Origin: Azoarcus olearius
GTDB lineage: Bacteria > Pseudomonadota > Gammaproteobacteria > Burkholderiales > Rhodocyclaceae
Length of the DNA: 64,000 nt
NCBI RefSeq assembly: GCF_001682385.1
Contig: NZ_CP016210.1
Span: forward strand, 62,001 to 126,000
Reading direction: 5' to 3'
The notes under the pieces were generated by a model. That model was not told where the DNA came from. It searched no databases and saw only the letters and a program-made list of their open reading frames with translations. Positions within the stretch are counted from its first letter, which is position 1. Each line of letters starts with the position of its first letter. Shown here in pieces: positions 4,925-25,996 of this stretch. A program made the translations under genes and the position numbers.

Positions 4925-5715
4925 CGCGCCCCACCCTCCGGCGCGGCCGAAGGGGCCGCGGTTCCGTCCCCCTCGGCCACTCCGGAACACAGCCATTCCT
5001 GCGGGTCGATTTCGCCGCCCTGCAGCGCGGCAGCCAGGCGGACATATTCCGCGCCCGACACTGGCGCAAAGACCACCCGGTCACCCGCCGCGAGCAGCGC
5101 GGGCGCGGCACGCCGGACATCGAACAGCGGCACCGGGCAGCGCCCGAGCAGATGCCAGCCGCCGGGGCTTTCCCATGGGTAGATCGCGGTAAGGCCGGTG
5201 GCGATGGCGACGCTGCCGGACGGCACGCGCAGCCGCGGCTCGGCCCGGCGCGGCAGACGCAGCGGTTCCGGCAGGTCGCCCATGAACGGAAAACCGGGCA
5301 GAAAGCCCAGCATGTAGACCCGGTATTCGGTGCCGCTGTGCAGCGCGACCACCGCGGCCTCGTCCAGCCCGGTGGCACGCGCGGTGGCGGCAAGGTCGGG
5401 CGCCGCCTCACCCTCGTAGCACACCGGCAGCCGCCAGCGCCGGCCCGGCGCCGCCGCCCTGTCCGCATCGCCCGCCAGCAAGGGCTGCAGCGCCGCCAGC
5501 AGCGCAGCGCGGCCGGTCACCAGCGGATCGAAGAACACCGTCAGCGAGCGGAAGGTAGGCATGGTCTCGACCAGCCCCGGCAGGCCACCATCGGCCTGCA
5601 GGCGGGCGATCGCGGCATCCAGCGCATTGACCGCCGCGAGCAGGCGCGGCTCGATCGCGTCGCCGAACTCGACCGTGAACGCCGCATCGCCCGCATCGAG
5701 CACGCGCGGCTTCAT
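4921..5715 (-). CDS. pxpB: 5-oxoprolinase subunit PxpB
   Basis: A 264-residue PxpB/KipI/YbgJ-family protein. The family motif GFLPGFPFMGDLP lies near residue 140 and is followed by RLPRRAEPRLRVPSGSVAIA and YPWESPGGWHLLGR. It is the first gene of the pxpBCA operon, with a good GGGGAGG ribosome-binding site upstream of the ATG. Together the subunits convert 5-oxoproline, a spontaneous glutamine or glutamate breakdown product, to glutamate. A 123 bp gap separates it from the hydrolase gene upstream on the same strand, which may or may not be co-transcribed. Confidence 0.94.
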   Translation of the reverse strand: MKPRVLDAGDAAFTVEFGDAIEPRLLAAVNALDAAIARLQADGGLPGLVETMPTFRSLTVFFDPLVTGRAALLAALQPLLAGDADRAAAPGRRWRLPVCYEGEAAPDLAATARATGLDEAAVVALHSGTEYRVYMLGFLPGFPFMGDLPEPLRLPRRAEPRLRVPSGSVAIATGLTAIYPWESPGGWHLLGRCPVPLFDVRRAAPALLAAGDRVVFAPVSGAEYVRLAAALQGGEIDPQEWLCSGVAEGDGTAAPSAAPEGGAR

Positions 5716-5838
5716 TGCGGCCTCCCCTGTGGCGGGCCGACGGCGGCGGAAAGACGGAGATTCACGGGAAGCAGGACACGCGGGACGGACACCCGCCGGA
5801 ACTTATCGGCCTGGCGCCCTGCCGGCAAGCGGCGGTGC

Positions 5839-12314: not shown

Positions 12315-14201
12315 ATGCCGCGCTGGCTTCGTCTGCTCGGCCTGGCCGGCGCCTGCCTGGCGCTGGCCGGCTGCACGCTGATCCGCCTCGGCGACGAGGC
12401 CCAGGCCTTCTACACCTCGACCGTGCTGGTCGGGCGCGTGGCCGCGCCGGCCGGCTGGAGCGGGCCGGTGATCGTGGCCGCTCATCGCGAAGAGGACGGC
12501 GATGCGCCGCCCGCCCATCGCACCCTGCTGCACGAAGCCGGCGGCTTCGAGCTGATCGTGCCGGCGGGCGACTACCGCCTGTTCGCCTTCGGCGACACCA
12601 ACCGCAACGGCCGCTTCGACGCCGGCGAACCGGCGGGCGAATATGGCGGCGGCAAGCCGGTGGCGGCCTCCGGCAGCGGGGTGATCGCGCTGCTCGATTT
12701 CGCCCTCGGCGACGCCGCCGCGGCAGGTGCCGCAGCCCGCCGCGCCGCAGGCTGGCCGCCGTTGGACAGCCGCCACAGCACCCAGGCCGGCGCCCTCGCA
12801 GAACTGGATGCGCCCGCCTTCTCCGCCGCCAACGGCGTCGACGGCTACTGGGCGCCGATGGCCTTCTTCCGCGCCAGCGGCGGCAACGTGTATTTCCTCG
12901 AACCCTATGACCCGGCGCGCATCCCGGTGCTGTTCGTGCATGGCGCCGCCGGTTCGGCGCAGGACTGGCGCTACTTCTACGAGCACCTCGACCGCAGCCG
13001 CTACCAGGCCTGGATCTTCCAGTACCCCTCGGGTGCGGCGGTCGATTCGATGGCCTACCTGCTGTACTGGAAGCTCTTCAACCTGCAGCTGCGCCACCGC
13101 TTCGAGCGCCTGCACATCGTCGCCCACAGCATGGGCGGGCTGGTGGCGCGCAGCTTCCTGATCAACCACGGCAGCCAGGTGCGCGGGCTGGGCCTGTTCA
13201 TCTCGATCTCGACGCCGTGGGCGGGCGAGCCCACCGCCGCGCTGGGGGTGAAGCACGCCCCGGCGGTGGTGCCGTCGTGGCACGACATGGCCCCCGGCGG
13301 CAGCTTCATGCGGGCGCTGTTCGCGCGCCCGCTGCCGGCAGGGCTGGACTACTACCTGCTGTTCGGCCACCGCGGCGGCTACAGCCTGCTGCGCCCCAAC
13401 CACGACGGCACGGTGACCCTGGCCAGCCAGCTGCGCCAGGCGGCGCAGGCGGAAGCGCGGATGATCTACGGTTTCGACGAGGACCATGTCGGCATCCTGT
13501 CCTCGCCGCAGGTGCTCGCCCAGGTGCAGGCGCTGCTCGACAGCCACGCCGGTGGCCCCCGTGCCGACACCGCTTCCGGGGGACAGCTGCGCGCTGCGTT
13601 CACCACCGCGGACGGCGTGCTCCCCGCCGGGGTGCCGCTGCTGGTGCTGCAGCCGCTGGGCGAGGGCGCGCGCGTGGCGCCGATCACGGTGCCGCTCGCC
13701 GCCACCGACAGCGGCCGCAGCCTCGGCCCCTTCCCGCCCGGCGACTACGCCGCCAGCCTGCTGGTGCAGGGTTACCGCGCCGAACCGGCGCGCCAGCCGC
13801 TGCACATCGGCGACGGCGCGGCCGCGACCGCCCGCTTCCGCCTGCTGCCGCGCGGCGAACTCGCCGGCTACGTGGGCGACGAGGCCGACGCGGTGGGCAA
13901 CCCGGCCGGCAGCTACCGGCGGCCGCTCGACACCGTGCGCATCCGTGAGGTCGACCTGCGCGGCGCGGGCGTGCAGCGCACGCTGCGGCCGCTCGACACC
14001 GCGGCGGACGACGCGCTCGCCCTTCACCTGCGCGGCGAAGACAGTGCCGAGCGGGCGCACTTCGCCTTCTTCGACCTCGCCGCGGGCGACTACGAACTCA
14101 CCATCCGGGCCGACGGCTACGAAACCCATCGGTCGCGCCATACCGTGGTGCCGGGACAGGGCGGCCCGATGGCGCCGATCGTGCTGCAGCCGCGGCGCTG
14201 A
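12315..14201 (+). CDS. Lipoprotein alpha/beta hydrolase with C-terminal regulatory-type beta domains
   Basis: A 628-residue lipoprotein. The signal peptide ends in the lipobox LAGC (about residue 20). A first beta-sandwich-like region (residues about 35-110, with FAFGDTNRNGRFD) is followed by an alpha/beta hydrolase domain: oxyanion HGAAGSAQDW near 213, nucleophile S272 in AHSMGG, and a probable histidine in DEDHVGIL. The C-terminal third (about 415-628) has carboxypeptidase-regulatory-like segments (PPGDYAASLLVQGYR, AAGDYELTIRADGYE). It is probably an envelope-anchored esterase or lipase; the substrate is unknown. GAGGA upstream of the ATG supports the start. Divergent from mscS and convergent with the histidine kinase, only 21 bp apart. 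Confidence 0.82.
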   Translation: MPRWLRLLGLAGACLALAGCTLIRLGDEAQAFYTSTVLVGRVAAPAGWSGPVIVAAHREEDGDAPPAHRTLLHEAGGFELIVPAGDYRLFAFGDTNRNGRFDAGEPAGEYGGGKPVAASGSGVIALLDFALGDAAAAGAAARRAAGWPPLDSRHSTQAGALAELDAPAFSAANGVDGYWAPMAFFRASGGNVYFLEPYDPARIPVLFVHGAAGSAQDWRYFYEHLDRSRYQAWIFQYPSGAAVDSMAYLLYWKLFNLQLRHRFERLHIVAHSMGGLVARSFLINHGSQVRGLGLFISISTPWAGEPTAALGVKHAPAVVPSWHDMAPGGSFMRALFARPLPAGLDYYLLFGHRGGYSLLRPNHDGTVTLASQLRQAAQAEARMIYGFDEDHVGILSSPQVLAQVQALLDSHAGGPRADTASGGQLRAAFTTADGVLPAGVPLLVLQPLGEGARVAPITVPLAATDSGRSLGPFPPGDYAASLLVQGYRAEPARQPLHIGDGAAATARFRLLPRGELAGYVGDEADAVGNPAGSYRRPLDTVRIREVDLRGAGVQRTLRPLDTAADDALALHLRGEDSAERAHFAFFDLAAGDYELTIRADGYETHRSRHTVVPGQGGPMAPIVLQPRR

Positions 14202-14222: not shown

Positions 14223-15536
14223 TCAGCCCTGGGGCAGGCTGACGATGGCGGCCAGCCCGCCGCCGCCGCGGTTCTCCAGCCGGATGTCGCCGCCCTGCGC
14301 GCGCAGCAGGTTGCGCGCAATCGCCAGGCCGAGGCCGGTGCCGCCTGTCTGGCGGCTGCGCGAATCCTCGGCGCGGAAGAAGGGTTCGAACACCTGCTCC
14401 AGCAGCGCCGGCGGCAGCCCGGGGCCGTCGTCCTCGATGCGGATCTCGACCCCGTCGCCCTCATGCGCGAGCCGCAGCGTGGTGGCGCCGCCGCCGTACT
14501 TCAGCGCGTTGTCGAGCAGGTTCTGCAGCGCGCGCTGCAACGCGCGCGGGGCACAGCGCACCGGCGCCGCCAGGCGGCCCTCGATGCGTACCGCCTGGCC
14601 CAGGTCGGCGGCCTGCTCGGCAAGCGACTCCACCAGCGCCTGCAGGTCCACCCGCGTGCTCGCCTCGCTCGGGCGCGCGCTGCGGGCGTAGTCCAGCCCT
14701 TCCTCGACGAGATGGCTCATCGCGTCGATGTCGGCCTCGATGCGCGCGCGCGCCTGCTCATCGGCGGGCAAGGCGCCGACGCGCAGGCGCAGGCGGGTGA
14801 GCGGGGTCTTGAGGTCGTGGGAAATCGCCGCGAGGATCTGGGTGCGTTCGGCCAGGTTCTTCTGCAGCGCGGCCTGCATCGCGTTGAAGGCGCGGCTGGC
14901 TTCGACCAGCTCGCTCGCGCCGCGCTCGGGCAGCGCCGGCGCGTCGAGGTTGCGGCCGAGCGCCCGCGCGGCGTCGGCCAGCCGGCGCAGCGGCCGCGTC
15001 GCCAGCCGCACCGCGCCCCACGCCGCCAGCATCACCGCCAGGCTGACGGCCGCCACATAGGCGGCGATCACGCCCAGCGGCGGCGGCGCGAGCGGCGCCT
15101 TGCGGGTGGGAAAGCGCACCAGCAGGGTGTGGGCCTCGTCCAGCGCCACCGCCAGCGCGGGGATGCCGTCTTCGCCCGGCACCGGCGGCGCGAGCATCAC
15201 CGCGCGCACATCGATCGCGGGACCGAGCAGGCGCCGCATCGGCACCATCGATTCGCGCAGATGCGGCGTATCGGCCGGGGGGTGGGTCCGTCCGGCCGGT
15301 TCCAGCGCGGGCTGGTAGAAGCCGCGGTCGAGCGCCGGTATCCACGTCTCGCGCTCGGCGGGCGGCATGCGCCCGAGCAGGCGGTGCAGGAAGGCGATGT
15401 CGGCGCCCATGAACTCGAACATCTGGCGCCGCGAATCGCGCGCGCTCACCGCCAGCGCGCCGCCGAAGCTCAGCACCTGGATCAGCACCGTGGCCACCAC
15501 CAGGATCAGGAACACCCGCCCGGCAAGCGACTTCAC
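14223..15536 (-). CDS. EnvZ-type sensor histidine kinase
   Basis: A 437-residue inner-membrane kinase: transmembrane segment at about 6-27, a periplasmic loop of about 140 residues, a second transmembrane segment near 160-180, HAMP, then HisKA with H240 in ISHDLKTPLTRL, and HATPase motifs NLLDNALKYGG, EDDGPGLP and GTGLGLAIARNLL. It starts with GTG; the GTGA sequence is also the response-regulator stop, a 4 bp overlap indicating translational coupling. The pair is divergent from the ABC/LolA-like/beta-barrel operon, which is its likely target. The periplasmic loop is proline-rich and not recognisable as a known sensor domain. Confidence 0.9.
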   Translation of the reverse strand: MKSLAGRVFLILVVATVLIQVLSFGGALAVSARDSRRQMFEFMGADIAFLHRLLGRMPPAERETWIPALDRGFYQPALEPAGRTHPPADTPHLRESMVPMRRLLGPAIDVRAVMLAPPVPGEDGIPALAVALDEAHTLLVRFPTRKAPLAPPPLGVIAAYVAAVSLAVMLAAWGAVRLATRPLRRLADAARALGRNLDAPALPERGASELVEASRAFNAMQAALQKNLAERTQILAAISHDLKTPLTRLRLRVGALPADEQARARIEADIDAMSHLVEEGLDYARSARPSEASTRVDLQALVESLAEQAADLGQAVRIEGRLAAPVRCAPRALQRALQNLLDNALKYGGGATTLRLAHEGDGVEIRIEDDGPGLPPALLEQVFEPFFRAEDSRSRQTGGTGLGLAIARNLLRAQGGDIRLENRGGGGLAAIVSLPQG

Positions 15537-16303
15537 GCGCCATCTCCGTCGCCAAAGCCGGGGGGGCGCGTCACGTGCGCGGCGACCGTCTTGCACAGCA
15601 CGTAGCCCTCGTTGCGCACCGTCTTGATGTAGGCCGGCTCGCGCGCATCGTCGCCCAGGCGCTTGCGCAGGCGGCTGACGCGCAGATCGATGGAGCGGTC
15701 GAACACGTCGGCCTCGCGCCCGGCCAGGCCGACCAGCAGCTGGTCGCGGTTCACCACGCACTGCGGATGGTCGAGCAGGAAGCGCAGCAGGGTGTATTCG
15801 GCCGCCTGCAGCAAGGTGACCGTGCCGCCGCGCGCGACCAGGTGGCGTTCGACGGTGTCGAGCAGCCAGTCGCCAAAGGCAAGGTAGCGCGCCACTTCGG
15901 TGCGCACCGTGCCCGGGGGCAGCATGCGCGCGCGGCGCAGCACCGCGCGCACGCGCGCCAGCAGTTCGCGTGCGACGAAGGGCTTGCCGAGATAGTCGTC
16001 GGCGCCCATCTCCAGCCCGATGATGCGATCGACGTCGTCGGCGCGCGCGGTCAGCATCACCACCGGAATCTGCGCATGGGCCGGGGTCTCACGCAGCCAG
16101 CGGAACAGCGCCATGCCGTCCTCGCCCGGCAGCATCAGGTCCAGCACCACCACATCGACCGGCCCCGCCAGCAGCGCGGCGCGCATCTGGCGGCCGTCGG
16201 CCGCGGCGGATACCTGCAGCGCCTGCTTGCCGAGGTAGTCGGCGAGCAGGTCGCGGATATCGGGGTCGTCGTCGACGATGAGGACGTGGTCGGGGCGGTT
16301 CAT
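15533..16303 (-). CDS. OmpR/PhoB-family response regulator
   Basis: A 256-residue regulator with an N-terminal receiver domain (acidic pocket VDDDPD at 10-15, phospho-acceptor D55 in VVLDLMLPGEDG, conserved lysine in YLGKPF) and a C-terminal winged helix (LLQAAEYTLLRFLLDHP, then FDRSIDLRVSRLRKRLGD and IKTVRNEGYVL). It is transcribed with the overlapping kinase gene. It probably binds the direct repeats in the adjacent divergent intergenic region (16335-16367) and controls the ABC/LolA-like operon and possibly itself (inference). The C-terminal extension (about 18 residues, glycine-rich) is slightly longer than usual. Confidence 0.92.
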   Translation of the reverse strand: MNRPDHVLIVDDDPDIRDLLADYLGKQALQVSAAADGRQMRAALLAGPVDVVVLDLMLPGEDGMALFRWLRETPAHAQIPVVMLTARADDVDRIIGLEMGADDYLGKPFVARELLARVRAVLRRARMLPPGTVRTEVARYLAFGDWLLDTVERHLVARGGTVTLLQAAEYTLLRFLLDHPQCVVNRDQLLVGLAGREADVFDRSIDLRVSRLRKRLGDDAREPAYIKTVRNEGYVLCKTVAAHVTRPPGFGDGDGA

Positions 16304-16334
16304 GGCCGTATTGTGCCGTCATGGATGTGTCGCC

Positions 16335-16391
16335 GTGTATCCGCGCCTCGCCGGCGTGTATCGGCGCAACGCGCGGCCAGCGCGCGATACA
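16335..16391. promoter_or_regulatory. Candidate response-regulator operator (direct repeats)
   Basis: Two near-identical 12-mers, GTGTATCCGCGC (16335-16346) and GTGTATCGGCGC (16356-16367), lie in the same orientation 21 bp apart, two helical turns. An inverted partial copy, TGTATCGCGC on the minus strand, lies at 16382-16391. The position between the divergent two-component genes and the ABC operon, and the spacing, fit OmpR/PhoB-type tandem binding. Confidence 0.5.
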
Positions 16392-16489
16392 AAACCGCGG
16401 CCGGGCGGACACATCGCGGCGACACCTGCGGGCGCCCAATAGCGCCATCGCGGGAGCCAGCCGGCGCCCGCCCTGCCGGAGCACCCGTC

Positions 16490-17224
16490 ATGAACACCGC
16501 CCCCCCCGCGGCCGCCGTGCGCACCGAGCCGGTCGCCGTGTTGCGCGGCATCCGCAAGCGCTATCGCCTGGACAACACCGCGGTCCTCGCCCTCGACGGC
16601 GTCGATCTCGACATCCCGCCCGCCCGCTTCACCGTCATCACCGGCCCGTCGGGCAGCGGCAAGAGCACCCTGCTGCACCTGCTCGGCGCGCTCGACCGCG
16701 CCGACGCCGGCACCCTCCACGTCGACGGCCGCGACCTCGCCCGCCTCGACGACGACGCGCTGTCGGCCTTCCGCGCGCGCCACATCGGCTTCGTGTTCCA
16801 GAGCTTCAACCTGCTGCCGGTGCTGACCGCGCTGGAGAACGTCGAATACCCGCTGCGCCTCGGCACGCTGTCCGCCGCCGCGCGCCGCGCCCGCGCGCTG
16901 GATCTGCTCGGCGCGGTCGGCCTGGCCGACAAGGCGCGCCACCGCCCGGCGGAACTCTCCGGCGGCCAGCGCCAGCGGGTAGCGATTGCCCGCGCGCTGG
17001 CCAATTCGCCCCGTCTGCTGCTGGCCGACGAGCCCACCGCCAACCTCGACCGCGCCACCGGCGCCGGCATCATCGCGCTGCTGCGCCGGCTGCAGCGCGA
17101 AACCGGCACCAGCGTGGTGTTCTCCTCCCACGACGCGGCGGTGCTCGATGCCGCCGACCTGCGCGTGACCCTGGTCGACGGCCGCGTCGCCCGGCTGGAA
17201 ACCGGGGCGGAGGTGGCGGCATGA
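16490..17224 (+). CDS. ABC transporter ATP-binding protein (LolD/MacB type)
   Basis: A 244-residue cytoplasmic ATPase with Walker A GPSGSGKST, Q-loop FVFQSFNLLPVLTALENV, signature LSGGQRQR, Walker B LLLADEPTANLD and the H-loop in FSSHD. The Q-loop wording NLLPVLTALENVEYPL is typical of the LolD/MacB/FtsE-like (type VII, mechanotransmission) branch. It is the first gene of a four-gene operon with a permease, a LolA-like protein and a beta-barrel; its stop overlaps the permease ATG by 4 bp. It is expected to power the permease. The ATG was chosen because it gives a short N-terminal extension before the domain; longer forms are possible. Confidence 0.93.
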   Translation: MNTAPPAAAVRTEPVAVLRGIRKRYRLDNTAVLALDGVDLDIPPARFTVITGPSGSGKSTLLHLLGALDRADAGTLHVDGRDLARLDDDALSAFRARHIGFVFQSFNLLPVLTALENVEYPLRLGTLSAAARRARALDLLGAVGLADKARHRPAELSGGQRQRVAIARALANSPRLLLADEPTANLDRATGAGIIALLRRLQRETGTSVVFSSHDAAVLDAADLRVTLVDGRVARLETGAEVAA

Positions 17225-18618
17225 GCACGCTCTTCCTCGCCTGGCGCAACGTGCTGCGCAACCGCCGCCGCAGCGCGATCACGCTCGCCACCATCGCGGT
17301 CGCGGCAATGGCCGTCGTGATGCTCGGCGGCTACGTCGCCGCCACCATCAAGGGGCTGGAAACGCTCACCGTGCGTCAGGTGGGCCACCTGCAGGTCATG
17401 AGCCGCGGCTACCTCGAATTCGGCCGCGCCAACCCCGCCCGCCACGCCCTGCGCGACTACGCCCCGCTCGCCGGGCGCCTGCGCGCCGATCCGCAACTGG
17501 CGCCGCTGCTGCACGTGGTGACGCCGACGCTGCAGGTGCAGGGCGTCGCCGGCCACTTCGCCAGCGCCAGCTCCAGCACCTTCAGCGCCGCCGGCTGGGT
17601 GGCGGACGATCGCGCCCGCATGCTGGCGTGGGACGGCCTGCGGCTGGGCACGCCGCCGCTGCCGACCGCGCTGCGCGCCGACCGCCCGGACGACGGCGTG
17701 ATCGGCGTCGGCCTCGCCCAGTTGCTCGACCTGTGCGACGCGCTGGCCATTGCCGATTGCGTGCGCGCACCGGCAGCGGTGCCGGCGGCCGCCGCCGCGA
17801 TCGACGCCGACCTCGCCGCCCTCAGCCGGCAAGCGCGCGAAGCGGGGCCCGCCGCACCCGCCGCCGGCGCGGTGGTGGTGGATCTGCTCGCCGCCGGTGC
17901 CAGCGGCGCGCCCAACATCGTGCGCATGACAGCGACACGCGCCGAGCGCCAGGGCGTGCGCGAACTCGACATGGTGCACGTCGGCCTGCCGCTGGCGCTG
18001 GCGCAGCGGCTGGTGTTCGGCACCGGCGCGGCCGGCGCCTCGGCGCTGGTGCTGCAGCTGGAAGACAGCGCCCGCCTGGACGAGGCGCGGGCGCGGGTCG
18101 CGGCGCTGGTGCACGACTACGCCGGCGACACGCTGGAGGTACGGACCTTTGCCGAGGTGTCGCCGAGCTACAACCAGGTCGTCCGCATGTTCCGCACGCT
18201 GTTCGGCTTCGTCTCGCTGCTGATGGCGGTGGTGACGCTGTTCGCGGTCGCCAACACGGTGAACATGGCGGTCAGCGAACGCACCGGCGAAATCGGCTCG
18301 CTGCGCGCGATCGGCCTGCCGCGGGCGCGCATCCGCCGCATGTTCGTGCTGGAAGGCGGGCTGGTCGGCGCCTTCGGCGCGGTGCTGGGGGTGGCGCTGG
18401 CGGTCGTGCTGGCGGGCGGGCTGATCAACCACGCCGGCTTCAGCTGGACGCCGCCCGGCAACATCACCCCGGTGCCGATCACCATCGACGTGCAGGGCAG
18501 CGCGCGGCTGTGCCTCGGCACCGTGCTGGCGATGACCCTGATCGCCTGCATCTCGTCGTGGTGGCCGGCCCGCCGCGCCGCCCGTCTCGAAATCGTGGAG
18601 GCCCTGCGCCATGCGTGA
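17221..18618 (+). CDS. ABC transporter permease, FtsX/LolE-MacB type
   Basis: A 465-residue inner-membrane protein: one N-terminal transmembrane helix (about 20-45), a large periplasmic domain (about 46-320), then three helices in the C-terminal FtsX domain (FRTLFGFVSLLMAVVTLFAVANTVNM, the SERTGEIGSLRAIG coupling motif, GGLVGAFGAVLGVALAVVLAGG, and a last helix near 435-455). This is the type VII ABC fold used by LolCDE and MacB, which moves substrates within or out of the periplasm rather than across the inner membrane. It overlaps the ATPase and the LolA-like gene. The substrate is probably a lipoprotein or lipid handed to the LolA-like neighbour (inference). Confidence 0.9.
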   Translation: MSTLFLAWRNVLRNRRRSAITLATIAVAAMAVVMLGGYVAATIKGLETLTVRQVGHLQVMSRGYLEFGRANPARHALRDYAPLAGRLRADPQLAPLLHVVTPTLQVQGVAGHFASASSSTFSAAGWVADDRARMLAWDGLRLGTPPLPTALRADRPDDGVIGVGLAQLLDLCDALAIADCVRAPAAVPAAAAAIDADLAALSRQAREAGPAAPAAGAVVVDLLAAGASGAPNIVRMTATRAERQGVRELDMVHVGLPLALAQRLVFGTGAAGASALVLQLEDSARLDEARARVAALVHDYAGDTLEVRTFAEVSPSYNQVVRMFRTLFGFVSLLMAVVTLFAVANTVNMAVSERTGEIGSLRAIGLPRARIRRMFVLEGGLVGAFGAVLGVALAVVLAGGLINHAGFSWTPPGNITPVPITIDVQGSARLCLGTVLAMTLIACISSWWPARRAARLEIVEALRHA

Positions 18619-19420
18619 CGTCCCCTTCCCCCGCGGCGGGCGCCGCCGCCTGCTGCTCGCAGCCTGCTGCCTCGCCGCCGGCGCCGCGCTGCCGGGTTGG
18701 GTGCGCGCCGACGACGAGGCGCTCGCGCTACTCGCCGGCAGCGACCGCGTGCGCAACCTGCCCGGCAGCTTCTCGGTGCAGATCGCGCTGACCGAATTCC
18801 GCCACGGCAAGCAGACCGGCAGCTCGGTGCTCACGGTGTATTCGCGCCCGGCGCCCGACAGCGGCCAGTACAACAACCTGGTGCGCTTCGTCGCCCCGGC
18901 GCGCGATGCCGGCAAGCTGATGCTGCGGCGCGGGCTGGACCTCTGGTTCCACGACCCCGCCAGCGGCGCCAGCGTGCGCATCTCGCCGCAACAGCGCCTG
19001 CTCGGCCAGGCCAGCAACGGCGACGTGATGAGCACCAATCTCGCACGCGACTACCGCGCCGAGCTGCTCGGCCGCGAAAGCCTGCGCGACGGCGAGGGCC
19101 AGCCGCGCGAGGCCGCCCGCCTGCGCCTCACCGCGCTGCGCGACGACGTGCCCTATCCGCTCGCCGACTACTGGATCGAACCCGGCAGCCACCATCCGCT
19201 GATGGCGCGCTACCACAGCGCCGAAGGCCGCCTGCTGAAGACCGCCTACTTCCGCAAGTACCGCGAGGTGCTGGGGGTGTTACGGCCGACCGAGACGGTG
19301 ATCATCGACGGCCTCGATCCCGACTGGGTGACGCTGATGCAGCTCTCCCGCCACACCGCGCGCGAGGTACCCGAGGCCTGGCTGCAGCGCGACTACCTGC
19401 CGCGCTTCAGCGGCGAATGA
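18611..19420 (+). CDS. LolA-like outer-membrane lipoprotein-sorting/lipid carrier protein
   Basis: A 269-residue periplasmic protein. The N-terminus has an Arg-rich start and signal (RRRLLLAACCLAAGAALPGWVRA, cleavage near residue 34; the twin cysteines are not in a good lipobox). The mature part is a LolA/LppX-type half-barrel family protein, recognisable by YSRPAPDSGQYNNLVRFVAPARDAGKLMLRRGLDLWFHDP, PQQRLLGQASNGDV and the late VIIDGLDPDWVT. Such proteins bind lipid acyl chains in a hydrophobic cavity. Its gene overlaps the permease by 8 bp and the barrel gene by 4 bp, arguing for a relay from permease to carrier to outer membrane (inference). Confidence 0.82.
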   Translation: MRDVPFPRGGRRRLLLAACCLAAGAALPGWVRADDEALALLAGSDRVRNLPGSFSVQIALTEFRHGKQTGSSVLTVYSRPAPDSGQYNNLVRFVAPARDAGKLMLRRGLDLWFHDPASGASVRISPQQRLLGQASNGDVMSTNLARDYRAELLGRESLRDGEGQPREAARLRLTALRDDVPYPLADYWIEPGSHHPLMARYHSAEGRLLKTAYFRKYREVLGVLRPTETVIIDGLDPDWVTLMQLSRHTAREVPEAWLQRDYLPRFSGE

Positions 19421-20598
19421 GCGCCGCCGCGCGGCCCGCGCGCATGCTGCGCGTGCTGGGGGCGGCGTTGCCGCTGCTGCTCGGCGCCGCCGGCGCGCCC
19501 GCGGCGGCGGCCTTCGACCCCCTCGCGCTGCAGCCGGAGACCCCCGCCGACGACACCGCCACCGCGCCTCCCCCCTGGCACGGCAGCGGCCCCGGCCTGC
19601 GGCTGGAACTCGCCCGCGAGCAGCAGGATCGCGCCGGGGGCGGATCGCAGGGCTACAGCAGCGTCGTGCTCGATTTCCGTGGCGAATGGCGAACAGGGGC
19701 GGGCCTGCGGCTGGCGCTCTCCGACCGCTACGAGCGCCGCATCGGCGGCGACGCCGCGCGCAACCGCAATGCCCTGCGCGAAGCCTATGCCAGCCTCGCG
19801 GCAGCGCCGGGCTGGTATGTGGATTTCGGCCGCATCAACTGGCGCAACGGCGTCGGCAGCGGCTACAACCCCACCGACTACCTCAAGCGCGGTGCCGACA
19901 TCGAGCAGGGCAGCCTCGACCCGCGAGCCCAGCGCGAAAACCGGCTCGGCACCGTGATGCTGCGCCAGCAGTGGGTCGGCGCCGCCGGCTCGGCCCAGCT
20001 CGCGCTGATCCCGGCGCTGGCCGACGGCCCCGAAAGCAGCCTGACCGCCCCCGGCTGGTCGCGCACCAACCGCGAGCGCGCCGCGCTGCTCAAGCTGGCG
20101 CCGACGGTGGACGAACGCACCAGCCTGGACCTGCTCGCCTACACCCGCGCCGGCGACGCGCCGCAGGTCGGTGCCAACCTCACCCGCCTGCTCGGCGACG
20201 CCTGGGTGCTGCATGCGGAATTCTCGCGCGGCCGCCGCGCGGCCGCGCCGGGCGCGCCGCTACGCCAGGCCGACGACAGCGCCATCGGCCTGGCCTGGAC
20301 CACGCCGCCAGGCGCGGTGCTGACGCTGGAGCACCAGCACGATGGCGGCGCCCGCCAGCGCGCGCTGTTCGCCCGCCTGGCGTGGGACGACGCCTTCGGC
20401 CTCGCCGGCGTGGATGTGTCCGCCTTCGTGCGCCGCACACTCGACAGCCGCGCGCGGCGCTGGCAGATCGAACTCGGCTGGGCGGCCGGCGACCGCGACG
20501 ACCTCCGCCTGCGCTGGGCCGGCAGCGACGGCACCACCGACCCCGCCACGCCCACGCCGCGCCACAGCCTCAATCTGGCGTGGCTGCATGCGTTCTAG
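19417..20598 (+). CDS. Predicted outer-membrane beta-barrel protein
   Basis: A 393-residue secreted protein with a signal peptide (MLRVLGAALPLLLGAAGAPAAAA) and a mature part dominated by alternating hydrophobic/polar strands ending in aromatic residues (for example LRLALSDRYERR, GWYVDFGRINWRNG, LNLAWLHAF). The C-terminal residue is phenylalanine preceded by an alternating pattern, the usual BAM recognition signal, so outer-membrane insertion is likely. I do not recognise the family. It is the last gene of the ABC operon and overlaps the LolA-like gene by 4 bp (ATGA), so it is probably the outer-membrane acceptor or channel of that system (inference). Confidence 0.7.
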   Translation: MSAAARPARMLRVLGAALPLLLGAAGAPAAAAFDPLALQPETPADDTATAPPPWHGSGPGLRLELAREQQDRAGGGSQGYSSVVLDFRGEWRTGAGLRLALSDRYERRIGGDAARNRNALREAYASLAAAPGWYVDFGRINWRNGVGSGYNPTDYLKRGADIEQGSLDPRAQRENRLGTVMLRQQWVGAAGSAQLALIPALADGPESSLTAPGWSRTNRERAALLKLAPTVDERTSLDLLAYTRAGDAPQVGANLTRLLGDAWVLHAEFSRGRRAAAPGAPLRQADDSAIGLAWTTPPGAVLTLEHQHDGGARQRALFARLAWDDAFGLAGVDVSAFVRRTLDSRARRWQIELGWAAGDRDDLRLRWAGSDGTTDPATPTPRHSLNLAWLHAF

Positions 20599-20688: not shown

Positions 20689-23600
20689 TTACTTCACCAC
20701 CCACACCCCGCTCTCGCCCTTGTCCGCCAGCGCCTTCTCCTCCGGCTGGTACATGCGGTAGTAGCGCGCGGGCGGCAGCACGAAGCGGCCAGGTTGGGCA
20801 ACGCGCAGCAGGTGGCGGATGGTGACCGTGCCTTCCAGCCGGTCCACCGGCACGCCATAGCTGCCGCTGCGTTCCTCGGCCCGGGCGCGCTCCAGCGCCA
20901 CCGGCTGGGGGCCGTCGTCGGCCAGCGCGATGCCCCAGGTGCCGCGCTCCACCGCGGCGCCCGGCGGCAGCGCGGCCTCGAGCAGGCCGCGGCGGTAGCC
21001 GGCGTCGGACTTCAGCACGATCTCGTCGAGGTAGAGCGACTGCACCGAGAGGCCGTCGGCCGGCTTCACCGGCGTGCGGGTATAGCCCTTGTCCGTGCGT
21101 TCGAGCCGGTACAGGCGGCGCTCCACGGTAACCGGCAGCGTGCCGGGACCGGCGCCCTCCTCGGCCTCGTAGCGCAGCACCGCGGTCAGCGCCTCGCCGC
21201 CGCGACCGCCTTCGACCTGCAGGCCGTTGGGCAGCGGGCTGGACGAAGGCCAGCGCCATTCGGCCAGACCGAACGCGGCGCGCGCGGCCTGCCACGCGCC
21301 CGCCGGATGCGCGGCGGAGGCCCCGGGCGCGATCTCGCCCAGCGCCTTGCGCGTCCACACCAGCGTCAGCGCGCGGTCCAGCGTCGGCGCGGCGCTGCCG
21401 GCACTCGCGAGGATGTCGGCCGCGGCGGTCCTGGCCTCCTTGCCGGCGAGCAGCAGCAGCGCGCGCGCCGCCGGCCGGTTGCTGGCGGCAAGCTGGGCTT
21501 GGGCCTCGGCGACCGTGGCGTCGAAGCCTGCCGGCAGCGGCGCCTGCGCACGCTGCGCGACCACCGCGGCGAGCACGCGGGCGTGGGCGATGCCGAGCGC
21601 GCTGTCGGGCGCGGCAAGGAAGGGGCTCCAGCTCTCGCCGCCGGTGCGGCCGTCCTCCGGCGCCTTGGCCTCGGCCAGCGCCTGCAGCAGGCCTTCGCTC
21701 TGGGTACGCACCGGCAGCCCGATCTCCTGCGCAAACCATAGCGCCAGCGCGCGGTGCAGCAGCGGCTCGTGGTTGGCGTGGTTGCGGTAGGCGGTCAGCA
21801 CGCGTTCCCAGTGCGCCGCGGGCAGCGTGATGCCGAGCGTGCGCGCGGCGTACCAGTCGGCGTAGTAGGCGTAGGCCGTCATCAGCGCGCTGTTCTCGGT
21901 GCCGTCGCCCCACCAGCCGAACACCGCCTGCGGGCCGGCAAGCGCGGCCAGGCGCAGGCGCTGGCTGTAGAGCGTCTGCCACAGGCGGCCGCCCTCGCCT
22001 TCGGCGCGGCGGTCGGGCGCGAGCAGCGGCGTCACCAGCGCCAGCGGAATCAGCCGGCTGGCGGTCTGCTCGGTGCAGCCCCAGGGGTAGTCGATGAGGT
22101 CGTCCGCGATGCGCAGGAAGTGCTCGCCGCCGCCCGCCACCAGGCGCAGGCGCAGGTCGCGCGCATCGGCCGGCAGCGTGAAGGCGGCCGGCGCGTCGCC
22201 GTGCAGCGCAAGGATCTGTTCGCGCGGACCGCGCCACTTCGCGCCGCGCGCGTCGAGCGGCGTCTCCAGCGCGTCCACCGTCTTGCCGCCCTCCTTCACT
22301 TCGACGCGGGCGGTTTCGCGGCCCTTGAAGTCCGGCAGCGCGAACTGCAGGTAATTCACGCCGCGGTGCAGGCTGGCCTCCTGTTTGACCTCCTTGCCGG
22401 CCAGCGTCAGCACCACCTCGGCCTTGCGGTCCTCGGCCGCGTTGTTGAACACCGCCAGCGCCGCCTGCGGCTTGTCGCCTTCACGCAGCCAGTCGGGCGA
22501 AGTCCATTTGGCATACAGCGGCTTGTCGGAACGGACGTAGGCGGTACGCTGGCCGGGCACGCCGTCGGCGGCGTCCAGTCCGACCGCGCGCACCGTGATG
22601 CGCCAGCGCGACAGCGCGTCCGGCATGCGGAAGGAGAAGCGCGCGCGGCCCTGGGCGTCGGTCTTCAGCGCCGGCAGCCAGGCGGCGGTGTCGGTGTCGT
22701 CGCGGCGCGGGCGTTCCAGCACCTTCACGCCGCGCTCGTTGTACTGGTGGCGCGCGGGCGGCTGGCGCGACGCGGCGGCGGACCAGTCGGCGGCCTCGTC
22801 ATAGGCGATGAAGTTGAGGCTGGCGCTGGTGCGCACGTTGTTGCGACGGATGTGCTGGAGGAATTCCGGCAGGCTGGGCGCAATCTCCGGCTGAAGCGCA
22901 TAGACCATCTCGTCCACCACCGAGACCGTGAGCAGCGCCGGCGCCGGCTTGCCGCGCAGCATGGCCTGGATGTCCACCGTCACGGTGTCGCCGGGCTGCA
23001 CGGTTTCATGGTCGCTGCGGATGTCCAGCGCGATGCGCGGCGGCTCCACCACCAGGCCGGCGTTCTGGAACACGTAGTCGCCGTGCTTCACATACACCGC
23101 AGAGAAGGTGATGTTGGGCGCATGCGCCTCGCTGACCGGGATGCGCGCGCGCCACTGGTTGGGGGCGAGGCGCTCGGTGCGCAGCCAGCTTCCGGGGCGG
23201 CTCAGCAGCGCGGTGGCGTCCACGCCGTCGCGCTCCAGGGTCAGCAGCGCTTCATCCACCGGCTCGGGGAAGGAGATCAGCACCTCGGCGGTGTCGCCCG
23301 GCTGGTAGCTGACCTTGTCGGTGACCATCTCGATCGAGCCGGGCGCGACCTTGAGGCTGTCCTTGTCGGTGGCGCCGCCCACCCAGTGCGCGGTGGCGGC
23401 GACGATATTGCCGGCGGCGTCGCGCAGCATCAGCGAATAGGAGCCGGGGCGGTCGAGCGCCGGCTTCCACTCGCGCTGCGCCGGGTCGAAATCGCCGCCG
23501 CTGCGGGATTGATCCTCCAGCCGCACGATCTCCCACTTGACCGGCGCCGCGGCGTTCTCGCCCTCGGCTTCGAGGCGGAAGGCCGGCTTGTCGCCCGCCA

Positions 23601-25302
23601 TCGTGAAGCTGCGGGTGCTCGCCAGCTTCCAGCTCGCCGCGGCGCGCTCCACCAGCAGTTCGCGCGAGCTGCGCACGCGGTAGGCGGCGCCGTCGGTGGC
23701 GAGCAGGGTGAGGATCAGGCGCGACGGCTCCTTCGCCGCCGGCAGCGTGAATTTCGCCTCGCCGCTGCCGTCGGTGGTGAGGCTGGCGGTGGACAACTGC
23801 ACCGGGAACAGGCCGCTGTAGCGCAGCTCGCCCTGCACCATGGTGAGGGTCTGCGCGCGCAGCGTGAGTTCCACGGCGGCGTTCTTCACCGGCTTGCCGT
23901 CGGGATAGGCAAGGCGGACCTTGCCGCTTACCGGCTCGCCGGTCTTGTAGCTCTTCTGGTCGGCCAGCAGCTCGATCTCGAAGTGCGGCTTGACGTATTC
24001 GGCGACGCGGAAGGCGGCACCGTACTGCTTGTCCTCGTAGCCGATGCGGATGTCGTAACCGCCGGCGACCGCGTTGTCGGGCAGGCGGAAGGCGGTGTCG
24101 GCGCCGCTGTCGGGCACCAGCGGCGCGCTGGTGGTGAGCACCGGGGTGCCGTTGGGGTCATGCACCTCGATGCGCAGCTCGCCGGCGCGCGCCGGGCGCG
24201 AACGGCTGGCGGACTGGAAGTCGCGGCCGAGGAACTTGATCCGCACCAGGTCGCCCGGGCGGTACAGCGGCCGGTCGGTCACCGCGTACAGCTTGGTGTC
24301 GTGGATCTCGCTGTCGTAGTAGAAGTTTTCCGACACGAACACCCCGCCGGCGGCATCCTCGCCGAGCAGGTAGGTGCGTTCCGGGCTGGCGTGGGCGAGC
24401 GTCGCGAGGCCGTCGGCGGCGGTGGTGGCGGACTTCAGCGTGCCGACGCCGTCGGTCCACAGCAGCCGGCTGTCGGCCACCGGGCGGCCGTCGTTGCGGT
24501 TGGCGGTCCACACGGTCAGCGCGCCGGCGGCGATCTTGGTCACCGCGACGGTGTCTGAGACGAACAGCAGCGTCAGCGCGCGATGGGTGCCGATGATCGC
24601 TTCCACCAGGTACAGGCCGGGCTTGAGCTTGCCGAGCGGCACATGGATGTTGCCCTCGCTCGCGGGGATGAAGTCGCTGCTCGACCCCTGCAGCTTCACC
24701 TCGGGCGGCTTGATCGGCTGCGCCTGCCACACCGGATAGCGGAAGCGGTCGACCAGCTCATAGCCCTCCAGCGCCTTGAAGCGCTGCGGCGCGCGGAACT
24801 CGGTTGGCTCCAGCAAAGCGCGCCGGCTCTGCAGCGCCGGGGCCGCGGCGGTGACGGTGCTGCGGGTGCGCGGATCGAACAGGTCGCGCCATGCGAAGCG
24901 CGACTTCTTCCAGGCGTTGTCCCACAGGTAGGACAGGGTGTTGGGCAGGCCTTCGTCGCGCGGCCGCGCGCGCACGTCGACGCGGTGCAGGTTCTTCTGC
25001 GCCTTCAGGAAATCGAGCGGCTTCGGCACCCGGTACAGCACCACGTCGACGCCGCCGTAGGCTTCCAGCATCTGGCGGCCGCCGTCGCGCGCCGGCACCT
25101 CGACCCGCAGCAGGGCCTCGTCGCCGCTGCCGAACTGGCGGTCGGCGAGGATGAAGAAGGGCATGCTCTCGAACGGCACGTAGCCGCTCGACAGCCCGAG
25201 CTCGGACTGCGCCGCGGCCGGCGGCGGCGCCACCGTGCAGGCAAGCGCGAGCAGCGCGGCGGAAAGCAGACGCGGGAGGGACGGGCGGAGTAGGGTCGTC
25301 AT
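20689..25302 (-). CDS. yfaS: Bacterial alpha-2-macroglobulin, YfaS-like
   Basis: A 1537-residue secreted protein of the alpha-2-macroglobulin family, a periplasmic protease trap. The signal peptide (residues about 8-31) ends with PAAAQ; a cysteine at the end of LLALAC is only a weak lipobox. MG domains fill the first half (for example TDRPLYRPGDLVRIKF, YVKPHFEIELLADQKSYKTGEPV). Near residue 1076 the sequence GCTEQ matches the CxEQ thioester motif used to trap proteases covalently. The ATG at 25302 lies downstream of the yfaT stop; a TTG at 25320 is an alternative. It is the third gene of the yfaA-yfaT-yfaS block, as in the E. coli cluster. Confidence 0.9.
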   Translation of the reverse strand: MTTLLRPSLPRLLSAALLALACTVAPPPAAAQSELGLSSGYVPFESMPFFILADRQFGSGDEALLRVEVPARDGGRQMLEAYGGVDVVLYRVPKPLDFLKAQKNLHRVDVRARPRDEGLPNTLSYLWDNAWKKSRFAWRDLFDPRTRSTVTAAAPALQSRRALLEPTEFRAPQRFKALEGYELVDRFRYPVWQAQPIKPPEVKLQGSSSDFIPASEGNIHVPLGKLKPGLYLVEAIIGTHRALTLLFVSDTVAVTKIAAGALTVWTANRNDGRPVADSRLLWTDGVGTLKSATTAADGLATLAHASPERTYLLGEDAAGGVFVSENFYYDSEIHDTKLYAVTDRPLYRPGDLVRIKFLGRDFQSASRSRPARAGELRIEVHDPNGTPVLTTSAPLVPDSGADTAFRLPDNAVAGGYDIRIGYEDKQYGAAFRVAEYVKPHFEIELLADQKSYKTGEPVSGKVRLAYPDGKPVKNAAVELTLRAQTLTMVQGELRYSGLFPVQLSTASLTTDGSGEAKFTLPAAKEPSRLILTLLATDGAAYRVRSSRELLVERAAASWKLASTRSFTMAGDKPAFRLEAEGENAAAPVKWEIVRLEDQSRSGGDFDPAQREWKPALDRPGSYSLMLRDAAGNIVAATAHWVGGATDKDSLKVAPGSIEMVTDKVSYQPGDTAEVLISFPEPVDEALLTLERDGVDATALLSRPGSWLRTERLAPNQWRARIPVSEAHAPNITFSAVYVKHGDYVFQNAGLVVEPPRIALDIRSDHETVQPGDTVTVDIQAMLRGKPAPALLTVSVVDEMVYALQPEIAPSLPEFLQHIRRNNVRTSASLNFIAYDEAADWSAAASRQPPARHQYNERGVKVLERPRRDDTDTAAWLPALKTDAQGRARFSFRMPDALSRWRITVRAVGLDAADGVPGQRTAYVRSDKPLYAKWTSPDWLREGDKPQAALAVFNNAAEDRKAEVVLTLAGKEVKQEASLHRGVNYLQFALPDFKGRETARVEVKEGGKTVDALETPLDARGAKWRGPREQILALHGDAPAAFTLPADARDLRLRLVAGGGEHFLRIADDLIDYPWGCTEQTASRLIPLALVTPLLAPDRRAEGEGGRLWQTLYSQRLRLAALAGPQAVFGWWGDGTENSALMTAYAYYADWYAARTLGITLPAAHWERVLTAYRNHANHEPLLHRALALWFAQEIGLPVRTQSEGLLQALAEAKAPEDGRTGGESWSPFLAAPDSALGIAHARVLAAVVAQRAQAPLPAGFDATVAEAQAQLAASNRPAARALLLLAGKEARTAAADILASAGSAAPTLDRALTLVWTRKALGEIAPGASAAHPAGAWQAARAAFGLAEWRWPSSSPLPNGLQVEGGRGGEALTAVLRYEAEEGAGPGTLPVTVERRLYRLERTDKGYTRTPVKPADGLSVQSLYLDEIVLKSDAGYRRGLLEAALPPGAAVERGTWGIALADDGPQPVALERARAEERSGSYGVPVDRLEGTVTIRHLLRVAQPGRFVLPPARYYRMYQPEEKALADKGESGVWVVK

Positions 25303-25312
25303 GGCGCGTGGA

Positions 25313-25996
25313 TCAGGCAAGGAAGGCCAGCGTGTGCACGCCGGCGAAATTCGGGTTGGTAGCGTCGGGCCGCCAGCGCGTGTCGGTCCATTGCAGCAGT
25401 TCGCGCGGCGTTACCGCGCGCAGGCCGTCGTCGCCGGGGCGGGGCTCGGCGCCGTTGTGATAGACGATGCGGTAGCCGGTCCACAGCATCAGGTGCTGGG
25501 CGTCGCCCTGGTCGAAGAACAGCAGATCGGCCGGGCGGGCAAGGCGCAGGTCGCGCCCGACCGGGCGGCTGTTTTCCTGCACGAGGCCGATCGCATTCAC
25601 GTAGGCGCCAGTGCTGCCGTCGGGCCGCTTCCAGCGGTGGCGCAGTTCGGCGCGCACGGCCGCGGGCACGGTATCAGGCGGCAGGCGACCGGAAATGCCC
25701 ATCGCCTGGCGCCAGCGTGCGTCGTGCTCGGCCAGCGCCTCGGCCACCGCGAAGCGCACCAGCCCGGCGCAGTCGCGATGGGTCCAGCGCGGGGTCGGGC
25801 CGCGCCGGATCTGCGCCTCGGCGATCCGCACCACCCAGGCACGCAGCGCGCGGCTCTGTTCGGCATCCAGCTGCGCCACCGGCTCGGCAGCGCGCCCCGG
25901 TGCCACCGGCATCAGCGCGCGCAGCGGAGTGGCGGCGCCGAGCAGCAGCAGCCCCGCGCCGAGTGCGCGCCGGCGTGCCGCGAGACGGACGCTCAC
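25313..25996 (-). CDS. yfaT: YfaT-like DUF1175 protein, NlpC/P60-like features
   Basis: A 227-residue secreted protein of the YfaT/DUF1175 family. The N-terminus is Arg-rich with a hydrophobic core (ALGAGLLLLGAATPLRA). HRDCAGLVRF at 73-82 and DLLFFDQGDAQHLMLWTG at 157-174 resemble the DCSGLV (cysteine) and GDLVFF...HVGIY (histidine) motifs of NlpC/P60 cysteine peptidases, so C76 and H168 are candidate catalytic residues; this link is my inference. It starts at GTG in a GTGA overlap with the yfaA-like stop, preceded by GGGGAAC; a GTG at 26020 is possible. It lies between yfaA and yfaS as in E. coli. Confidence 0.82.
   Translation of the reverse strand: MSVRLAARRRALGAGLLLLGAATPLRALMPVAPGRAAEPVAQLDAEQSRALRAWVVRIAEAQIRRGPTPRWTHRDCAGLVRFAVAEALAEHDARWRQAMGISGRLPPDTVPAAVRAELRHRWKRPDGSTGAYVNAIGLVQENSRPVGRDLRLARPADLLFFDQGDAQHLMLWTGYRIVYHNGAEPRPGDDGLRAVTPRELLQWTDTRWRPDATNPNFAGVHTLAFLA

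Follow-up and report, generated by a model that had tools for sequence, protein, structure and literature searches.

In the canonical Lol pathway (LolCDE-LolA-LolB), a type VII ATP-binding cassette (ABC) motor of the LolD/LolCE superfamily is combined with a periplasmic carrier of LolA fold and an outer-membrane acceptor. The Borrelia gene cluster BBJ23-29, described in 2026, was proposed to work by the same extract-carry-deliver logic with an Omp85 barrel (PMC13078400). Here, we analyze a locus with the same kinds of components in a 64,000-nucleotide stretch of DNA from Azoarcus olearius (contig NZ_CP016210.1, positions 62,001 to 126,000 of the forward strand; hereafter, the window). It consists of an operon for an ABC ATPase, an FtsX-type permease, a LolA-like carrier, and a predicted outer-membrane beta-barrel, and of a divergent OmpR/EnvZ-type gene pair. 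We propose that this operon is dedicated to moving a lipid-like small molecule across the envelope; the cargo would be an amphiphilic lipid or a lipidic natural product and not a lipoprotein. We regard this reading as evenly poised between right and wrong.

The locus shares with BBJ23-29 an ABC transporter (MacB/LolE-like in Borrelia), a LolA-like protein, and an outer-membrane barrel encoded in one cluster, but the spirochaete system has a barrel of the Omp85 type, two TPR proteins, one unknown gene, and no reported sensor pair. From canonical Lol it differs in having a PF17131 instead of a PF03548 carrier, one permease gene, its own sensor pair, and an 18-strand barrel where Lol has LolB. 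The E. coli aryl polyene was proposed to be moved by ApeL-ApeM-ApeN with a resistance-nodulation-division (RND) motor (PMC8253772). ApeLMN likewise comprises a LolA-like carrier and an outer-membrane acceptor, serving the polyene lipid of a cluster resembling fatty acid and polyketide synthases, but its motor is of the RND rather than the ABC type and its acceptor is a LolB-like protein rather than a barrel. An inner-membrane motor and a LolA-like protein are also found together in the RND/MMPL sets TOL_3187/TOL_3188 (PMC6304351) and PG1175-81 (PMC10434189), which differ in their proton-driven RND motor; in the TOL case, the MMPL-LolA protein and a porin were co-induced on a C28 alkane (PMC6304351). 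Type VII ABC transporters work on the periplasmic side and do not pump across the membrane, and one of them, YbbAP, was proposed to extract hydrophobic compounds for a periplasmic partner; YbbAP-TesA differs from our locus in its hydrolase partner, ten-helix permease, and lack of an outer-membrane part (PMC12646458).

An earlier note on this DNA, made from the sequence alone, knew of no characterized system of this composition. This view does not hold, given the Borrelia precedent (PMC13078400) and ApeLMN as an RND analogue (PMC8253772), and the four-gene set is a variant of an already described logic, with a different barrel family. In the open-access papers searched, the proteobacterial four-gene set was not found described, and BBJ23-29 was the only close parallel.

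Conservation of the four-gene set

All four operon genes lie on the plus strand, with the ATPase gene at 16490-17224, the single permease gene at 17221-18618, the LolA-like gene at 18611-19420, and the barrel gene at 19417-20598. The overlaps amount to 4 bp (ATPase/permease), 8 bp (permease/LolA-like), and 4 bp (LolA-like/barrel); these values and the coordinates of all six genes given in the earlier note were reproduced when the genes were re-derived.

We compared 84 loci, 80 of them collected by LolA similarity alone and 7 by a barrel search, less 3 duplicates. ATPase, permease, LolA-like, and barrel genes were all present in that order in 76 of them. Because nearly all loci were chosen by LolA similarity only, recurrence of this order is far beyond chance. 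Six of the eight exceptions are truncated at contig ends and two (L083 and L110) have no recognizable permease gene. Co-occurrence, which had been suggested as a check, is thus pronounced, and LolA-like and barrel genes without the ABC genes, a pattern that according to the earlier note would speak against its proposal, were almost never seen. Across 73 loci, the four proteins show correlated pairwise distances (r=0.87-0.90), a correlation to which shared species history contributes. When the search was started from the barrel, the whole set was found in each of the seven further genomes of the order that had a match. Remoter LolA-like matches (about 20-36% identity) mostly come from loci with this four-gene order, in which the barrel has diverged strongly; profile comparison showed the close and distant barrels to be homologous (hhalign 99.9%, E 5e-31). 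One distant barrel match (L160) and one LolA-like match (L183) were found alone. That the four genes act together is strongly supported.

Motor, carrier, and barrel

The ATPase is of the LolD/MacB type and carries a Walker A motif (GPSGSGKST), an ABC signature (LSGGQ), and the sequence LADEPTANLD; it matched ABC_tran in Pfam with 117 bits. The permease, with a large periplasmic domain, matched FtsX (PF02687) with 66.9 bits at a cut-off of 25.5, and its top solved-structure matches were YtrF, LolC/E/F, and MacB. An FtsX C-terminal domain together with a separate LolD/MacB-class ATPase places the motor among the type VII (MacB/FtsX/LolCDE) transporters. In NCBIfam, the top-scoring models were LolD for the ATPase and LolCE for the permease, with both scores below the equivalog cut-offs (TIGR02211, 219.7 versus 307.75 bits; TIGR02212, 69.9 versus 362.45 bits). 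Since there is a single permease gene, the permease probably works as a homodimer. A MacAB-TolC tripartite pump was considered and rejected, as neither a MacA-type adaptor nor a TolC-type factor is among the families of the operon genes; likewise, no TolC-type match was present among the listed fold matches of the outer-membrane component, which is predicted to be a beta-barrel. In Jeongeupia grown on chitin, an FtsX-like permease, possibly a counterpart of this one, was among the most strongly upregulated genes (PMC10455584).

The carrier matched LolA_like (PF17131) with 103 bits at a cut-off of 30, and no other Pfam family. Its AlphaFold2 model (mean predicted local distance difference test score [pLDDT], 91) has a predicted LolA fold, with NE2245 of Nitrosomonas (3buu) as the closest solved structure (template modeling [TM] score, 0.74/0.88, the latter by target length), followed by LolA3 of P. 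gingivalis, a DUF1329 protein, and then LolA, RseB, and LprG. Family match and predicted fold are in line with the LolA-like identity assigned initially. LolA3, which has a hydrophobic groove, shows only weak binding to LolB (PMC13103446), and deletion of LolA3 in F. johnsoniae caused no phenotype (PMC11885536). Assignment of the carrier to the canonical LolA family PF03548 was discarded, since it matches PF17131 only and the genome encodes its PF03548 LolA elsewhere, at C1:1573190. The genome's single LolB match (C1:857144) likewise lies outside the operon, and a LolCE-type permease is also present elsewhere. As the genome thus encodes canonical LolA, LolB, and a LolCE-type permease at other places, the operon is a second route next to the canonical Lol pathway. 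Membership in canonical Lol was rejected on account of the missed LolD and LolCE cut-offs, the carrier family, and the absence of LolB from the operon. The invariant gene set, the LolA fold, and the coexisting canonical pathway argue for the dedicated character of the route that the earlier note had suggested.

The last operon gene is predicted to encode an outer-membrane barrel of a family without a name. An AlphaFold2 model based on an alignment of 59 relatives (pLDDT, 86.7; predicted TM score, 0.81) has 18 strands. The best solved folds were OprD/Occ channels and the alginate exporter AlgE (E about 1e-10; TM score, about 0.57), and all 50 listed fold matches were OprD/Occ, AlgE, or porins. 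The protein ends in LAWLHAF; a C-terminal Phe was also found in 50 of 77 relatives with a complete C-terminus. The model and the solved 18-strand barrels as top fold matches agree with the C-terminal-Phe beta-barrel described before. Neither Pfam, NCBIfam, nor PDB yielded an informative sequence match. Membership in OprD/Occ or AlgE by sequence was rejected, with no Pfam match in the window barrel and none to OprD or AlgE in its relatives; the Omp85 family was rejected as well, with no Pfam match and no Omp85 protein among the 50 listed fold matches. An ALxLAD motif occurs in the mature N-terminus of 36 of 59 barrels and nowhere else in the protein, and a looser form in 46 of 59, compared to 10.6 expected from shuffles; the window barrel has the variant FDPLALQ. 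This N-terminal peptide, which lies in a low-confidence region of the model, is a candidate docking peptide.

Gene neighborhoods of relatives and cargo

In Enterobacterales (E. coli, Enterobacter, Klebsiella, and Rahnella), the set is embedded among genes for ketosynthase, acyl carrier protein (ACP), FabZ dehydratase, aminomethyltransferase, and malonyltransferase, and several of these copies contain an extra gene between the ATPase and permease genes. In E. coli, this is a chromosomal island adjoining tRNA-Ser; 375 of the 5,426 complete E. coli genomes (about 7%) gave a match. By annotation alone, the enzyme set of these clusters resembles that of the streptococcal cyl operon, which makes the lipid granadaene and encodes CylA/B as exporter (PMC6985545). 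On the E. coli G8 plasmid (L199:11981-17835), a diverged set lies beside genes for an FeeM-type N-acyl amino acid synthase, a ketosynthase, and an ACP. Neighbors resembling polyketide synthases were also found in Aliiroseovarius, in Paraburkholderia, and at L176, the latter encoding a 1,860-residue KS-AT-ACP-KR protein. In the carrier tree, in which several long-branch joins are unsure, the Enterobacterales island and Aliiroseovarius copies are placed just outside the close family; the Paraburkholderia copy is placed inside it.

No conserved lipoprotein gene adjoins the operon in related loci. Lipoproteins, named beside lipids as candidate cargo in the earlier note, are therefore disfavored here, with relatives being linked to lipid or polyketide biosynthesis genes instead. 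In these relatives, the cargo is most likely the product of the adjacent fatty-acid or polyketide-type genes, and from them we infer a lipid-like cargo class.

The set with the extra gene is represented by L198:16106-20946 on the E. coli O158:H23 chromosome, within a fatty-acid/polyketide-type island. The E. coli island also contains ycdU, a gene name known from K-12, and K-12 may keep a remnant of this island. On an Aliiroseovarius plasmid, the cluster that includes the ABC set also has an MMPL transporter paired with another outer membrane lipoprotein-sorting protein (L204:5702-9133).

Regulation

On the minus strand, genes for an EnvZ-type sensor histidine kinase (14223-15536; HAMP, HisKA, and HATPase_c) and an OmpR-type response regulator (15533-16303) overlap by 4 bp, and 186 bp separate the regulator gene from the divergent ATPase gene. 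Gene re-derivation and Pfam/NCBIfam matches thus bear out the postulated pair and its orientation. It faces the operon in 11 related loci, and 11 of the 12 sensor-pair loci, window included, form one supported group in the carrier tree. Other clades have a downstream LytS/LytTR pair (11 loci) or a divergent AraC regulator (8 loci, strong scores).

The divergent promoter contains a 10-bp direct repeat, TGTGTC-n4-TGTATC (16326-16341, plus strand), which is a probable response-regulator box, an additional TGTATC half-site (16357-16362, plus strand), and the inverted half-sites GATACA (16386) and GACACA (16408), spanning 16386-16413 on the minus strand, with the inverted arm kept in several loci of the clade. 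In the window's clade, this promoter keeps TGTRTC-n4-TGTRTC followed by inverted GATACA half-sites. The exact direct repeat occurs at the same place in 7 of 11 clade loci and nowhere else among 207 loci searched; in the 4.45-Mb genome, it occurs once, in this promoter. This conserved operator-like array supports two-component control of the operon. Allowing one mismatch, 15 genome sites were found versus 10 for the reversed control pattern, so most of them are attributable to chance. One such site sits between a 66% identical regulator paralog and a gene for an LTXXQ (Spy/CpxP-type) protein. This near-identical box points to the box as a property of this regulator family and to envelope stress as the signal.

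At L220:4212-7024 in the window's own genome (C1:3106711-3109523), the LTXXQ gene is divergent from a second OmpR/EnvZ-type pair, with the near-identical box TGTATCCCAGCGTATC located between them. In 6 of the 11 related loci, a gene for a small secreted DUF2141 protein is found between the regulator and ATPase genes (L050, at 5401-5823, L012, L052, L054, L059, and L062); none is present at that place in the window.

Proposed mechanism and alternatives

In the proposed route, the sensor kinase would detect an envelope condition and the response regulator would activate the operon via the TGTATC boxes. The ATPase would drive a homodimeric FtsX-type permease, lifting the cargo from the periplasmic leaflet without pumping it across the membrane. 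The LolA-like protein would take the acyl part of the cargo into its groove and cross the periplasm, and the barrel would receive the cargo, perhaps via the conserved N-terminal peptide, and pass it into or through the outer membrane. This extract-carry-deliver reading, already put forward in the earlier note and in accord with the invariant four-gene set and the LolA fold, is based on the periplasmic-side action of type VII ABC transporters and on the YbbAP proposal. More broadly, and with somewhat less than an even chance of being correct, we tentatively consider the system to be a Proteobacteria-wide ABC counterpart of the RND aryl-polyene route that would export lipidic small molecules across the whole envelope by means of a type VII motor, a PF17131 carrier, and an 18-strand barrel. 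It would serve both as a plug-in of lipid or polyketide clusters and, in betaproteobacteria, as a stand-alone device under sensor control.

Several observations weigh against a lipid export route. Stand-alone copies have no conserved biosynthesis gene nearby, with only regulators recurring informatively, and the window genome has few ketosynthases; consequently, the link to lipids runs via relatives only. About 60% of the close loci have none of the three counted regulator types. L083 (7024-8777) and L110 (7216-8789) combine ATPase, LolA-like, and barrel genes with no recognizable permease gene nearby. The carrier cavity, the docking contact, and the direction of transport are putative.

The same components could instead form an envelope-defense pump that senses membrane-active amphiphiles, such as host or competitor lipopeptides or detergents, clears them from the inner membrane, and drives them out via the barrel. 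We consider this unlikely, even though attachment of the same operon to three unrelated regulator types, the inclusion of MacB and BceAB among type VII transporters, and the envelope stress suggested by a paralogous sensor pair that faces an LTXXQ gene of the Spy/CpxP type across a near-identical box would all suit it: the adaptor and TolC-type partner of such a pump are missing, and cluster-borne relatives suggest endogenous products. In our view, it is quite unlikely that the operon encodes an additional Lol pathway serving only some lipoproteins, in which the barrel would stand in for LolB or display lipoproteins on the surface. The best NCBIfam scores of ATPase and permease, with LolD and LolCE, and the LolA fold of the carrier point in this direction, as does the interpretation given to the Borrelia system (PMC13078400). 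However, the scores remain far from the cut-offs (219.7 versus 307.75 and 69.9 versus 362.45), canonical Lol genes are encoded elsewhere in the genome, no conserved lipoprotein gene adjoins the operon, and relatives are located in lipid or polyketide clusters. In addition, LolA3, the nearest studied carrier, is not paired with LolB, and no phenotype resulted when it was lost in F. johnsoniae (PMC13103446, PMC11885536).

A transport in the opposite direction, in which a porin-like barrel admits hydrophobic compounds that the LolA-like protein then ferries inward, appears highly improbable. The barrel fold is closest to OprD/Occ uptake channels as well as to AlgE, and joint induction of an MMPL-LolA protein and a porin on C28 alkane (PMC6304351) would be compatible with uptake, but studied FtsX-type ABC proteins work outward or on the periplasmic side, and the biosynthetic neighbors of relatives imply export. 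Export of a lipid-like molecule, our preferred reading, bears on how lipids other than lipopolysaccharide and lipoproteins get to the outer membrane. If true, the widespread PF17131 proteins, whose present annotation is lipoprotein-sorting, would gain a function, as would the nameless barrel family. The conserved set of motor, carrier, and barrel acceptor, with cluster-borne copies whose cargo can be predicted from adjacent genes, renders the question testable.

Second architecture and flanking genes

A second architecture, with two permease genes, the ATPase gene divergent from the LolA-like gene, and no barrel detected, forms one clade with 100% support. The window genome holds the carrier and ATPase of this barrel-less architecture at L019. 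There, the LolA-like gene is divergent from the ATPase gene (L019:8913-10489), and two tandem FtsX-type permease genes are located some 140 kb away (L190:7265-9819).

In the window, the locus is flanked by a gene (12315-14201) convergent with the kinase gene and encoding an alpha/beta-hydrolase with a lipobox (PGAP1-like), and by a bacterial alpha-2-macroglobulin gene (20689-25320, minus strand) that ends 90 bp past the barrel gene. Both were considered as parts of the system and placed outside it, because tblastn found neither in 15 related loci (0 matches). The hydrolase has a weak DUF2141 match close to its N-terminus.

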